Shown piece after piece: positions 16,605 through 21,027 of a DNA stretch of 64,000 bases. The position numbers and the translations under genes were made by a program. The notes below the pieces were generated by a model, which was not told the origin of the DNA, searched no databases, and was given only the letters and a program-made list of their open reading frames with translations. Each line of letters begins with the position of its first letter. The stretch's first letter is position 1. Source of the stretch: Oscillatoriales cyanobacterium (GTDB lineage: Bacteria > Cyanobacteriota > Cyanobacteriia > Cyanobacteriales > Laspinemataceae); the NCBI GenBank assembly GCA_011390955.1, contig JAABRM010000025.1:1-64000 (forward strand), written 5' to 3'.

Positions 16605-16737
16605 AGAAACCGGGTTTCTTTAGACAACCTTTGCCTCCCCACCAGCCCCTACATAGAAACCCGGTTTCTAACCGCTTCAGGTGTTGGGGCCTTTCGACTT
16701 CGGCAAAGAAGAAACCAGGGCAAGAAACCCGGTTTCT
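16605..16737. repeat. three copies of the AGAAACCCGGTTTCT palindrome
   Basis: Copies at 16605-16619, 16655-16669 and 16723-16737, in alternating GGG/CCC forms (each is the reverse complement of the other). They sit between ccmO and the FHA-kinase gene. The same palindrome flanks the RAYT gene at 18249-18809. Confidence 0.95.
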
Positions 16738-16761
16738 AACGTCTCTCTCAGAAAGGAAATT

Positions 16762-18129
16762 ATGTCAGCAAAAGTTATTTTAACCATCACCAAAGGCAAC
16801 CTAACGGGACAAAAATTTGAGTTTGATTCCCGCGCTACTTGTATTATCGGTCGGGCTGATGATTGCTATCCGAAAATACCCGATGATGAATACCATCGCC
16901 CGATTTCCCGTTATCATTGTTTGCTGGATATTAACCCCCCAAATCTCCGGGTGCGGGATTTTGGCAGCAAAAATGGCACCTTTGTTAATGACCAAAAAAT
17001 TGGCCAACGAGAAGCAAATCAAAGCCCCGAAGAAGGGGCAAAAATCAAGTTTCCTGAATATGATTTAAATTCAGGGGATCAAATTAAACTCAGTAATACG
17101 ATTTTTTCGGTGGGTATTGTCTCCGACCCGGAATTTTTACCAACCCCGAATGTGGCTAAAGTGCCGCTTTATCGTGCTACGGTTCATTCTCCTAAACCGA
17201 ATTTATGGGACTGGTTAAAAGGTTTATTAAAGCGGGCAAAAGCTGGAGAAGAAAATTTAAGGTCGATTAAACATTATACCCTATTGCGTAAATTGGGTGA
17301 GGGCGGTTTTGGGGAAGTTTATTTAGCAAAAAATGAGCAAACTGGGGAAGAAGTTGCCCTAAAAATCATGTTGCCACAAGTAGCAGCCAGTCCCCGCGCC
17401 GTGGAAATGTTTCAGCGAGAAATTGAAAATACTAGGGTGTTAAATCATCCCAATATTGTTAAACTGAAAGATGCGGGTTTTGCCGATGGCAATTTCTTTT
17501 TTACTCTAGAATATTGTAACGGTGGCAATATTTGTGATTGGATGCAACAACTTGGCCGAAATTTATCAATTGATGAAGCTTTGGCAATTACTCGACAAGT
17601 TCTGGATGGGTTAATTTATGCTCATCAAGCCGAAATTCCTGCGGTAAAATTGGCCGGTGGTGGTTTTGGTAAAGGTCGCGGTTTGGTGCATCGGGATATT
17701 AAGCCGCCGAATATTTTTTTAGTGCATGAAGGGGGAAAATTTCAGGCCAAAATCGGCGATTATGGGTTATCAAAAGCGTTTGATTTGGCGGGGTTAAGTG
17801 GTTTTACCATGAGTGGTGATAAAGCAGGTTCTCCGGCGTTTATGCCCCGACAACAAGTGATTGATTTTAAGTATGCAGATCCGGCGGTTGATGTGTGGGC
17901 TGTGGCGGCTTGTTTGTATTTTATGTTAACAGGTTTTATTCCCCGCGATTTGAGTGGGCAAGACCCATTTTTGGCGGTGTTGAAAAATAATCCGGTGCCC
18001 ATTCGCGATCGCGCTTCCTGGCTTCCCGAATCTCTGGCCAAAATAATAGATCGCGCCTTATTAGATCAACCAGAATTATATTATAAAACGGCGGCAGAAT
18101 TTAAACAGGCGATCGAAAAAGAAACCTAA
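16762..18129 (+). CDS. FHA-domain Ser/Thr protein kinase
   Basis: A longer frame begins at 16681 inside the palindromic repeats, but the ATG at 16762 follows a GAAAGGAAAT ribosome-binding site and gives a normal FHA start. Residues 5-120 are an FHA phosphothreonine-binding domain (GRADDCYP, SRYHCLL, NGTFVN). Residues 171-450 are a Hanks-type kinase: GEGGFGEVY, Lys201, HRDIKPPN (310-317), DYG (333-335) and AGSPAFMPRQQ. DYG replaces the usual DFG. No transmembrane segment, so a soluble signalling kinase of 455 residues. Targets are unknown. Confidence 0.92.
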   Translation: MSAKVILTITKGNLTGQKFEFDSRATCIIGRADDCYPKIPDDEYHRPISRYHCLLDINPPNLRVRDFGSKNGTFVNDQKIGQREANQSPEEGAKIKFPEYDLNSGDQIKLSNTIFSVGIVSDPEFLPTPNVAKVPLYRATVHSPKPNLWDWLKGLLKRAKAGEENLRSIKHYTLLRKLGEGGFGEVYLAKNEQTGEEVALKIMLPQVAASPRAVEMFQREIENTRVLNHPNIVKLKDAGFADGNFFFTLEYCNGGNICDWMQQLGRNLSIDEALAITRQVLDGLIYAHQAEIPAVKLAGGGFGKGRGLVHRDIKPPNIFLVHEGGKFQAKIGDYGLSKAFDLAGLSGFTMSGDKAGSPAFMPRQQVIDFKYADPAVDVWAVAACLYFMLTGFIPRDLSGQDPFLAVLKNNPVPIRDRASWLPESLAKIIDRALLDQPELYYKTAAEFKQAIEKET

Positions 18130-18248: not shown

Positions 18249-18809
18249 CTACTCTTCAAAAGTTAAATCCTCGCTTATATTCTCCATATTTACATCTTCT
18301 AAAAAATCCCGATAAGCATCCGCTGAAACCAACTCCAATCCATCCAATTTCGGCAAACTACCCCGACGCAAATCAACATATTCTTGATAACTGGAAAACT
18401 CCCAATCCTCTGCTTTCTCCACTAAATTAGCCTCGACGGGATTTAAGTGAATATAGCGAGTTAGGTTTAATAAATATTCGTCTTTATCTACATGAATCGC
18501 CTGAAACCGTCCTTGAAATAGTGACCCTACCCTTTTATACCGTTGATTAATCGCCTTAGCATAAGACAAAGTAAATGCCTGCATCAGCTTAGAAAAATTC
18601 TCAGTTTTCAGATACACTAATAAATGATAGTGATTGGGCATCAAACAATACGCAATAATATCCACGCCGCGATGAATCAAATGGGTTCTTAATTGGCGTA
18701 AAAAATAAACATAGTTATCTCGTTCAAAGAAGATTAGCTGACGGTTATTACCTCGGTTATAAACATGGTAATAATTACCCGCTTGAAAGATAACTTCGCG
18801 ACGTGGCAT
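18249..18809 (-). CDS. REP-associated tyrosine transposase (RAYT, IS200-like Y1 domain)
   Basis: A 186-residue Y1_Tnp protein. The start MPRREVIFQAGNYYHVYNRG is typical of RAYTs. The HUH metal-binding motif is HYH (60-62, in MPNHYHLLV), followed by YAKAINQRY (83-91), the QGRF motif (99-102) and a YIHLNPVEA segment. RAYTs are single-copy, domesticated IS200 relatives that bind and nick the REP palindromes around them. Here an AGAAACCCGGTTTCT palindrome array lies on both sides (18163-18227 and 18850-19123). The frame is intact and the last residues are acidic. Confidence 0.93.
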   Translation of the reverse strand: MPRREVIFQAGNYYHVYNRGNNRQLIFFERDNYVYFLRQLRTHLIHRGVDIIAYCLMPNHYHLLVYLKTENFSKLMQAFTLSYAKAINQRYKRVGSLFQGRFQAIHVDKDEYLLNLTRYIHLNPVEANLVEKAEDWEFSSYQEYVDLRRGSLPKLDGLELVSADAYRDFLEDVNMENISEDLTFEE

Positions 18810-19212: not shown

Positions 19213-19242
19213 AAAAAAAAAAAAAAAAAGGCGCTTCGCGCC
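19213..19242 (-). terminator. strong intrinsic terminator after the kinase-FGE gene
   Basis: Read on the minus strand, GGCGC-GAA-GCGCC is followed by 17 uninterrupted T. It begins 34 bp after the stop codon. In DGR targets a GC hairpin just beyond the variable region assists retrohoming, so the same hairpin could have a second role. Confidence 0.9.
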
Positions 19243-19275
19243 AAAAGGGAAAAAGAGAAAAAGAGTAGAGGGAAA

Positions 19276-21027
19276 TTAAGTTCTCGGCAGGGAGACGGCA
19301 ACACGAAACCCAATGTAGGAGAGCCGAACGCCGGGACTGTTGCAGCCCCGAAACGCCGAACGGCAGTACCTCGGAACGTCGTTCCAGCTACCACCGCGAA
19401 ACAGCTTATTATTTTTATGGGTAAAAATTTCTTTCAACCAATGGATCCAATTACGCTCGGAATGATAATCATTATCATTCTCATTTGGCCGCGCCAACCC
19501 ATTAGTCGGGGCGCCAGTATAGCTGTCGTGCCAATCGTCTAAACACCACTCCCAAACATTCCCGTGGATGTCATACAAGCCAAAAGCATTGGCGTGTTGA
19601 AAATGACCGACGGGAGTAGTTTTTTCGCGGTAAACGCCTTTAGCACCTGAGCCATAGGTATAATTGCCATCATAGTTGGCCAGGTCGGTTGTCAGGGTTT
19701 CGCCGATGTGAAAGGCTGTGGTCGTTCCGGCTCGTGCCGCATATTCCCACTCAGCTTCACTGGGCAGGCGATAGTTTTTCTCAGTTTTTTGACTTAACCG
19801 CGCACAAAATTCGATGCAGTCATACCATGAAACACATTCAACGGGAAGATTTTCTCCTTTAAATCTTGACGGGTTGGGGTCGAGGTCTATTTGCAGCTTG
19901 GGAAAACTGGCCACTTGCCGCCATTGGGCTTGGGTGACGGGATATTTGCCCATCAGGAAAGGCTTGATGGTGACTTGATGCTGCGGCTTTTCATAATGAT
20001 CCCAACGAGGATCTCCTTCACCAGCAGGGGAACCCATTGTGAAGGTGCCCCCTGGGATAAGTACCATTTCCAGGGTGACGCCATTGCCCAGGTCGGTGAT
20101 GATTTGTTTTGCTTGCCCTTGACTGCGGCTGATTTCTTTCCCCTGGGCGTTGACTTTGACGATGTTAAAGGTAAAGGTGGTAAAAGGACCTAGTAATTTT
20201 AACCACTCAGCGACGGACTGGGGACGGTTTGCTGCTTCTAATTCCAAGCCTTTGAGAATGGCGGCATTTTCCCAGTCAGGGATTTGCGGATTATGCTGTT
20301 TCGGTTCCTGCAAGGGAAGTTGCAACTCATCCCGAAAATTAGCGGGTATCGGGCTTTTACCTGTCCGCAAATTATATAGCGTAGCGGCCAAGGCATAGAC
20401 ATCAGTATATGGGCCGAATTTTCCTTGACTTTTATATTGCTCAATGGGAGCATAACACTCGGTTCTGGAGTTGGTCATGGTGCCGGTTTGTCCGTAGGCA
20501 AACTGTCTGGCTAACCCAAAGTCAATTAACACCGCGCTACTATCACTACGGCGCAACATTATATTGTGGGGTTTAATGTCCCGGTGTAATAACTCTTGGC
20601 TATGTACCAAGGTCAAAGCTGCCCCAATTTGCTCCATAATTTTTAGGGCTTGCTGTTGGGACATGGGGCCATTGTCTTCTACGAGTTCCGCTAGGTTCTG
20701 CCCTTGGATATATTCCATGACCATGCCCATGAGTCCTTGAGATTCCACCACTTCATACACTTGGACAATGTGGGGATGAGGGCATTTTGCCAGCCGTAAT
20801 GCTTCGTTGACAAAACTGACCTGGAGGCTGGTAAATTCGGTGATGGTTTTGTTGGTTTGTTGTTGGGTGTTGAGGGTTTTGATGGCGAAGGTTTTGCCGC
20901 TTTTGTTTTCCGTTGCGGTGTAGGTGCTGCCGAACCCACCGCCACCGAGGATGCCGGTGATGGTGTATTTGCCGTTGTTGAGTTGCTGGTTGGGTTGCCA
21001 GATGACGGGTTGCCAGATTTGGGTCAT
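19276..21027 (-). CDS. Ser/Thr kinase fused to a formylglycine-generating-enzyme-type domain
   Basis: Residues 20-285 are a Hanks kinase (GGGGFGSTY, Lys50, HRDIKPHN near 147, DFGLARQF, then a CYAPIEQY activation segment). A short linker leads to an FGE-sulfatase/SUMF1-type domain (about 315-583): IPGGTFTMGS, MGKYPVTQAQW, RLPSEAEWEYAARAG, YDIHGNVWEW, RGGSW and IGFRV. Such domains adopt the C-type-lectin fold and are the usual variable proteins of DGRs. Kinase-FGE fusions are known DGR targets in filamentous cyanobacteria. Residues 549-571 carry the expected variable-codon pattern. A palindrome array precedes the gene and a strong terminator follows it. Confidence 0.93.
   Translation of the reverse strand: MTQIWQPVIWQPNQQLNNGKYTITGILGGGGFGSTYTATENKSGKTFAIKTLNTQQQTNKTITEFTSLQVSFVNEALRLAKCPHPHIVQVYEVVESQGLMGMVMEYIQGQNLAELVEDNGPMSQQQALKIMEQIGAALTLVHSQELLHRDIKPHNIMLRRSDSSAVLIDFGLARQFAYGQTGTMTNSRTECYAPIEQYKSQGKFGPYTDVYALAATLYNLRTGKSPIPANFRDELQLPLQEPKQHNPQIPDWENAAILKGLELEAANRPQSVAEWLKLLGPFTTFTFNIVKVNAQGKEISRSQGQAKQIITDLGNGVTLEMVLIPGGTFTMGSPAGEGDPRWDHYEKPQHQVTIKPFLMGKYPVTQAQWRQVASFPKLQIDLDPNPSRFKGENLPVECVSWYDCIEFCARLSQKTEKNYRLPSEAEWEYAARAGTTTAFHIGETLTTDLANYDGNYTYGSGAKGVYREKTTPVGHFQHANAFGLYDIHGNVWEWCLDDWHDSYTGAPTNGLARPNENDNDYHSERNWIHWLKEIFTHKNNKLFRGGSWNDVPRYCRSAFRGCNSPGVRLSYIGFRVAVSLPRT
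19315..19383 (-). other. candidate DGR variable region (VR)
   Basis: Codons 549-571 of the kinase-FGE gene lie between the conserved RGGSW and IGFRV motifs. Fourteen residues sit at positions where family members commonly have Asn: N, D, V, Y, F, G, C, N, S, G, V, L, S, Y. All fourteen codons end in C or T, as expected if each derives from an AAC or AAT template codon with A substituted at positions one and two. The fixed codons between them (Pro, Arg, Cys, Arg, Ser, Ala) are the conserved ones. No template repeat or reverse transcriptase is seen in the window. Confidence 0.65.

Follow-up and report, generated by a model that had tools for sequence, protein, structure and literature searches.

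Evidence for remote targeting of a cyanobacterial kinase-FGE gene by a diversity-generating retroelement, and a phased array behind its variable region

We analysed a 64,000-nucleotide (nt) stretch of DNA from a filamentous, Planktothricoides-like cyanobacterium (contig JAABRM010000025.1, positions 1 to 64,000; hereafter the window) and identified in it a gene for a Ser/Thr kinase fused to a C-type-lectin domain of the formylglycine-generating enzyme (FGE) type. This gene almost certainly belongs to the remote (trans) targets of a diversity-generating retroelement (DGR), the core of which is on another contig, C65. The variable region (VR) at its 3' end departs from the template repeat (TR) of that core at adenines alone, and in two sister genomes the same gene bears the fixed bases of a different template. 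Remote DGR targets are a known class, to which the window gene adds; what is unexpected is a phased array 3' of the VR and the finding that core and targets moved independently.

Results

Template and variable region

The genome containing the window (G000; 7.12 Mb, 113 contigs) was searched with the last 145 bases of the gene. The query returned itself, four close copies and one weak match at chance level, and three further G000 kinase-FGE genes were found to match the same TR as the window gene. The gene order on C65 includes a kinase-FGE gene, an Avd gene and a gene for a 351-amino-acid (aa) reverse transcriptase (RT), with the non-coding TR lying 3' of the latter. The RT (L007:9731-10786; RVT_1, 1.2e-20) has the motif GLPIGNLTSQ, (I/V/L)GxxxSQ being given as the hallmark of DGR-type RTs in PMC3521204, and its best named match is NZ_LIUQ01000030.1 (88%). 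The Avd protein (111 aa) matched NCBIfam NF033474 (DivGenRetAVD) with 127 bits (cut-off 80) as well as Pfam bAvd, and both reading frames are open. An earlier note, made from the window alone, had taken the gene for a remote target without an RT nearby and expected an adenine-rich near-copy elsewhere, next to avd and the gene for a group-II-like RT. Both expectations were borne out: the near-copy and the core, with a DGR-type RT, are on C65, and no RT was found in the window, since all six PF00078 matches of G000 fall on other contigs. The five further RT matches have frames of 544-600 aa and, because of this length, were taken as group II type.

The window VR differed from the G000 TR at 18 of 30 adenines and at none of the 93 other bases (Fisher P = 5.8e-14 for 18/30 vs 0/92, over 122 nt). 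Eleven codons of the variable stretch are AAC or AAT in the template, nine of which were changed and two unchanged; of the remaining NNY codons, TAT had become TTT, one ATT was unchanged and another had become GTT. Two more template adenines were changed outside NNY codons (TTA to TTT and GGA to GGT). We take these eleven AAY codons, the TAT and the two ATT codons to be the 14 variable codons of the earlier note. All 14 do end in C or T and are formally derivable from AAY, as it had stated, but three have TAT or ATT in the actual template. Its variable stretch at 19276-19400 is likewise real, the exact VR being slightly shifted (19283-19405). Identity between TR and VR stops at the TR edges, the 3' edge of the rewritten 123 nt being CTGCCGAG, and 4 bases separate the end of the VR from the stop codon of the lectin-fold gene. 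At the other G000 targets, the counts of adenine and non-adenine changes were 16/30 and 0/93 for C65, 13/30 and 0/93 for C14, and 15/30 and 5/93 for C11.

By analogy with the Bordetella phage BPP-1, the DGR RT with Avd would copy the RNA of the C65 template repeat into cDNA mutated at adenines, and this cDNA would replace the 123 nt at the end of the window gene.

Sister genomes and template types

G000 was compared with two further Planktothricoides genomes, G001 and G002, both of which contain the window gene (93% aa identity). Against G001, the gene showed 69 nt differences over 538 codons outside the VR (4.3%) and 37 over 40 codons inside it (30.8%); against G002, the values were 3.5% and 33.3%, and between the G001 and G002 orthologues 2.2% and 15.8%. 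All 19 VR differences in the latter pair fell at the 28 template-adenine sites and none at the other 95, and in two other G001/G002 pairs 21/24 and 23/23 of the VR differences coincided with template adenines. For the fourth pair (C88/6469k), in which the template type differs between the two members, this was 18/35.

Of the 123 sites, 21 differ between the TR of G000 (TR0) and that of G001 (TR1), and 13 of these have no adenine on either side. At these 13 diagnostic sites, the window VR equals TR0 at 13/13 and its G001 and G002 orthologues equal TR1 at 13/13. Each of the four G000 VRs agrees with TR0 at all 13; among the G001 VRs, agreement with TR1 is 13, 13, 13 and 11 sites; and G002 has three TR1-like VRs (13, 13 and 11 sites) and one TR0-like VR (12 sites). 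When the 12 VRs of the three genomes were pooled, each scored on its better-fitting template (TR0 for the four G000 VRs and G002 6469k, TR1 for the remaining seven), changes were found in 179 of 346 template-adenine cells compared with 15 of 1130 others. A single remote gene thus bears the template type of its own lineage's DGR, which provides natural evidence for writing in trans. The earlier note had expected sister strains to differ only in the NNY codons. The excess within the VR stood (31-33% vs 3.5-4.3% outside), but the confinement did not hold where templates differ: 16 of 37 (G001) and 16 of 40 (G002) differences between the window VR and its orthologues lay off template adenines, because the VR adopts the fixed bases of its own lineage's template.

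The VRs of G001 C159 and G002 2148k have 4 and 5 non-adenine differences from TR1, and two of their variable sites, 64 and 85, are C in TR1 but A in TR0. Sites 64, 84 and 85 of these VRs (L172, L173) hint at an older template with A at 64 and 85, and this pair may have been written while the template still carried those adenines. The two cores also share ~80 nt of conserved sequence on the 3' side of the TR (L007:10858-11085 vs L123:7996-8223; 228 nt including the TR, 86% identity); this is possibly the RNA part bound by RT and Avd.

Separate histories of core and targets

Synonymous divergence (dS) between the G000 and G001 cores was 0.92 for avd and 1.00 for the RT gene. By comparison, backbone genes of the window gave 0.035-0.17 (six genes vs G002, four of them also vs G001). 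For target genes up to the VR, dS was 0.12-0.23 in three pairs with G001, and the window gene compared with G002 gave 0.09. In G000 a target lies on one side of the core and a second kinase-FGE gene on the other; the same gene pair occurs without the core at G001 C159 and in G002. The G001 core sits at C88, and the matching G002 locus lacks a stretch of ~2.07 kb and has ~0.53 kb of other sequence instead, in which a tandem repeat can be seen by eye (G002:C1 ~6469060-6469592; L127:8060-8592). When G000 was searched for the G001 cassette locus, the matches were short and mostly repeat-like (40 of 303 candidates scored).

G002 consists of one contig. Among the matches listed, its RTs were only 27-31% identical to the query, with frames of 456-587 aa; no Avd match was found at E 0.01, and no TR match beyond its four targets. 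These four orphan targets have open frames; three are of TR1 type and the other is of TR0 type. A TR0-type core was probably once present in the G001/G002 lineage. On the G002 chromosome, ~339 kb separate the orthologue of the window gene from the locus equivalent to that of the G000 core. These results show that the DGR machinery was swapped, moved and, in G002, lost independently of its targets; both strain-to-strain exchange and unequal loss of old duplicates fit the core history. Judged by these histories, the writing core and the written genes are separately inherited modules.

The second kinase-FGE gene beside the G000 core (L007:11280-13184) is 96.6% identical at the nt level to its G001 copy. 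Its C-terminus looks VR-like by eye, yet it has no TR match and no 3' array.

A phased array and hairpin behind the VR

An array of CYCTTT-like units follows the stop codon in 12/12 Planktothricoides targets, C11 retaining the first half only, and is not present 3' of the TR. The pattern TTAATTTCYCTYTRCTCTTTTTCYCT, searched with at most 3 mismatches in the three whole genomes, gave 12 matches, which are exactly the 12 targets, and the reversed pattern gave 0; since the pattern was derived from these targets, it is exclusivity that this search tests. In 9/12 targets a GC hairpin comes directly after the array, starting 33-36 nt past the stop codon, with arms GGCGC in six and TTCGCGC in three. 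C11 has a different hairpin at 53 nt, and C159 and 2148k have none by a stricter rule; the GGCGC hairpin behind these two VRs appears broken.

We then examined DGR loci of the surrounding clade, fetched by RT. Among the best 80 of 99 confirmed loci, 66 gave a de novo TR/VR pair and 14 none; the 66 include the locus of G001 itself (L043), which was left out of the 65-locus profile set. The 3' flanks of clade VRs were 78% pyrimidine compared with 41% behind TRs (P = 1.6e-12), and the base C recurred in them at lags 7-8 and 15-16. Median array scores were 25 for targets, 7 for TR flanks and 6 for 463 other open reading frames (ORFs), and 21/66 targets scored above the 99th percentile of ORFs, likely an underestimate because the top control ORFs resemble further targets. 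A profile trained on half of the 65 loci and tested on the other half, in both directions (E 1e-3), gave 60 matches. Forty were at a known VR (recall 40/65), 16 lay behind a second VR with 91-100% non-adenine identity to the local TR, 3 lay behind weaker VRs (69-81%), and 1 (L090, 37%) was too near the contig start to judge. A GC hairpin was detected within 110 nt of the VR in 42/65 loci (median 57 nt), compared with 6/65 TRs and 3% of shuffles.

As an outgroup, DGR loci on viral contigs with RTs 32-47% identical were used (best 80 of 592 confirmed; 68 with a TR/VR pair; 59 after removal of near-copies). Their VR flanks were not pyrimidine-rich (0.48), and many looked coding-like by eye. Spacing of CT at lags 7-8 was nevertheless periodic (z 5.8 and 7.4, compared with 8.4 and 10.4 in the cyanobacterial clade; 59 loci each, near-copies removed), and at least two TCTG units occurred in 12/59 VR flanks compared with 1/59 TR flanks. 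Viral contigs L202, L203, L206, L218 and L234, which have distant RTs, have ATCTGA-like units behind the VR at a spacing of ~8 nt; a perfect hairpin comes next in L202 and L203, and an imperfect one in L206.

The array plus hairpin may mark genes for rewriting, and is probably a target-side tag that guides the machinery to targets wherever they are located. In the fuller form of this proposal, which we consider as likely as not, targets bear a phased address readable as single-stranded DNA or by protein, in which CT returns at steps of 7-8 nt from the VR to the hairpin; it would be read in multiples by the machinery or a host factor and be enough to define targets in trans, and a newcomer core would take over resident targets and overwrite them with its own template. 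The units of this address would be TNCYCTTT octamers in the cyanobacterial clade and ATCTGA-like units in some phage DGRs. If the address is enough, cores could be exchanged or moved while the address-bearing targets stay. For the question of how DGRs find distant genomic targets, the conserved array and hairpin offer a concrete, testable address, which could also be used to find remote targets by sequence.

Alternative explanations

Several observations weigh against reading the window gene as a remote target recognised by its 3' tag. The core is on a different contig from the target, in a draft assembly of 113 contigs, and target C11 carries the 5/93 non-adenine changes given above. Judged from sequence, the DGR may still act on the window VR today. 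The evidence for the tag role is correlational, and the hairpin is missing or displaced behind 3/12 genus VRs. In G000 and G001, six targets with the canonical hairpin had 0 non-adenine changes and two without it had 4 and 5 (post hoc, P = 0.036), but in the clade the value was 1.48 without a detected hairpin (n = 23) and 1.60 with one (n = 42; P = 0.98), where detection misses imperfect hairpins. Given this negative clade-wide test, the idea that hairpin loss predicts decay stays a lead. Outgroup TR flanks also peak at lags 7 and 15 (z 5.3 and 4.9), not at lag 8, and clade TR flanks peak at lag 14 (z 4.2). These peaks perhaps stem from mis-assigned TR/VR pairs, and those of the outgroup weaken the case for CT spacing beyond the clade.

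The window VR might be a former target, once written by a DGR and today merely inherited. Such a frozen state exists in G002, whose targets stay open without a DGR RT, Avd or TR having been found, and the decay at C11 would fit it. Nonetheless, the window VR shows 0/93 non-adenine changes from the resident TR in a gene that otherwise differs by 3.5-4.3% from its orthologues, the G000 RT and Avd frames are open, and the 3' tag of the window gene is complete, so we consider a frozen target quite unlikely. An origin of the variable codons without a retroelement, through ordinary diversifying selection or through conversion between FGE paralogues, is extremely improbable. Conversion has possible partners in six other FGE-domain matches of G000 (C65 twice, C11, C14, C67 and C5), but changes restricted to the adenines of a non-coding template near an RT refute this explanation. 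The limit of identity at the TR edges and the diagnostic fixed bases, silent ones included, kept in all four G000 targets also speak against it.

For the array and hairpin, a role as transcription terminator or RNA-processing signal is the competing account. The hairpin and T-run of the window could also form an intrinsic terminator; in the genus the hairpin runs straight into a T-run in 7/12 flanks and after AAA in 3 more, and TTTT occurs within the next 16 nt of 37/43 clade hairpins. A T-run within 2 nt of the stem, however, was found in just 3/43, which is not typical of intrinsic terminators. A Rho-loading site would look similar to the pyrimidine array, but Rho is not known from cyanobacteria. 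The array moreover tracks VRs, with 59/60 cross-validated matches behind a TR-like VR (three of these weak), and the three examined G000 kinase-FGE genes without a TR match (the second C65 copy, C67 and C5) had flank scores of 0.53-0.63, within the background range (mean 0.57, maximum 0.66). We therefore regard a terminator or processing signal as somewhat unlikely. It is also unlikely that the 3' element merely hitch-hiked as targets were duplicated from one ancestral 3' end. The Planktothricoides targets are indeed paralogues with near-identical 3' flanks, and in the pair C65/C11 flank identity (0.69) is below that of FGE (0.85) and kinase DNA (0.91). Among the G000 targets C113, C65 and C14, in contrast, the flanks are 84-91% identical compared with 61-70% for FGE and kinase DNA, and in the clade the unit sequence and hairpin arms vary while the 7-8 nt phase persists, the same phase occurring in outgroup DGRs.

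Comparison with known systems

The cyanobacterial kinase-CLec DGRs of Vallota-Eastman et al. 2020 (PMC7517822) likewise combine a kinase with a lectin fold, a C-terminal VR, a cyanobacterial DGR RT and dispersed remote targets, and a kinase with a diversified binding domain was already proposed there. That paper places cyanobacterial DGR RTs in one clade; our RT was compared by type. It infers remote targets by similarity, whereas here orthologues in three genomes carry the fixed bases of the template. Its text does not mention Planktothricoides; its accessible excerpts do not mention a phased 3' array, and cis-acting features such as cruciforms are merely supposed in them.

The Treponema denticola DGR with its target TvpA (PMC4891356) shares the FGE-type lectin fold, template types (81% identical), strains that have leftover targets without a core, and a single strain in which a target belongs to a different template type. 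It has an HRDC protein instead of Avd, and kinase fusion is not mentioned in the excerpts of that paper. Its odd remote target retained the other template type, whereas the orthologues of the window gene carry the type of their own lineage.

The DGR hairpin is already known. The BPP-1 DGR (Guo et al. 2011, PMC3240598) likewise shows adenine mutagenesis, a 3' VR and a GC hairpin past the end of TR/VR identity, with a 4-nt loop GRNA and a VR-hairpin spacer of 4 bp (4-34 bp in phage relatives). Here the spacer is ~40 nt from the VR end in 9/12 genus targets, has a median of 57 nt in the clade, and is filled by the phased array; the short BPP-1 spacer means that the array is not universal. In Thiohalocapsa PB-PSB1 (PMC10907252), with a different host, different targets and several DGR loci per genome, diversification in trans was considered, and repeats resembling miniature inverted-repeat transposable elements replaced core parts. 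In the open-licence literature searched, we found no description of a phased 3' array, and nothing linking DGRs to concerted evolution or Planktothricoides to a retroelement.

The encoded protein and neighbouring genes

The kinase-FGE fusion named in the earlier note was confirmed by Pfam (Table 1). The FGE part was modelled by AlphaFold2 with a mean pLDDT of 92.5, and its top solved structures in Foldseek included PvdO, the DGR variable protein TvpA (2y3c, E 3.5e-18) and formylglycine-generating enzymes. Within the VR stretch, C270 (aligned-piece numbering) is the sole near-invariant cysteine in alignment A1, and the FGE likeness is one of fold alone. The protein would combine a Ser/Thr kinase with a lectin-fold binding domain at the C-terminus, in which the binding residues vary. 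As the variation falls on these residues, the trait diversified here is most likely ligand recognition steering a kinase.

Table 1. Features of the remote DGR target in the window
Feature	Position	Strand	Basis
Target gene of the remote DGR core, encoding a 583-aa fusion of Ser/Thr kinase and FGE-type C-type lectin	19276..21027	(-)	ORF, Pfam, TR match
Protein kinase domain, residues 21-234	20326..20967	(-)	Pfam Pkinase 1.4e-44; HRD, DFG and VAIK-like motifs by eye
FGE-sulfatase / C-type lectin domain, residues 320-577	19297..20070	(-)	Pfam 2.4e-54, AlphaFold2, Foldseek
VR, 123 nt	19283..19405	(-)	18 differences from own TR, all at its 30 adenines
Phased pyrimidine array TTTCCCTC TACTCTTT TTCTCTTT TTCCCTTT T, 8-nt register, stop codon to hairpin	19243..19275	(-)	Sequence comparison
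GC hairpin GGCGC-GAA-GCGCC, candidate DGR hairpin/cruciform	19230..19242	(-)	Sole window match to GGCGCNNNGCGCC; chance mean 0.05
T-run after hairpin	19213..19229	(-)	Sequence

A gene for an IS200-like Y1 transposase adjoins the target (18249-18809, minus strand), with several GAAACCSGGTTTC palindromes nearby and copies of ~98% aa identity in G001 and G002; it is possibly a repetitive extragenic palindrome (REP)-associated transposase. An FHA-kinase gene (16681-18129, plus strand) lies two genes from the DGR kinase target.
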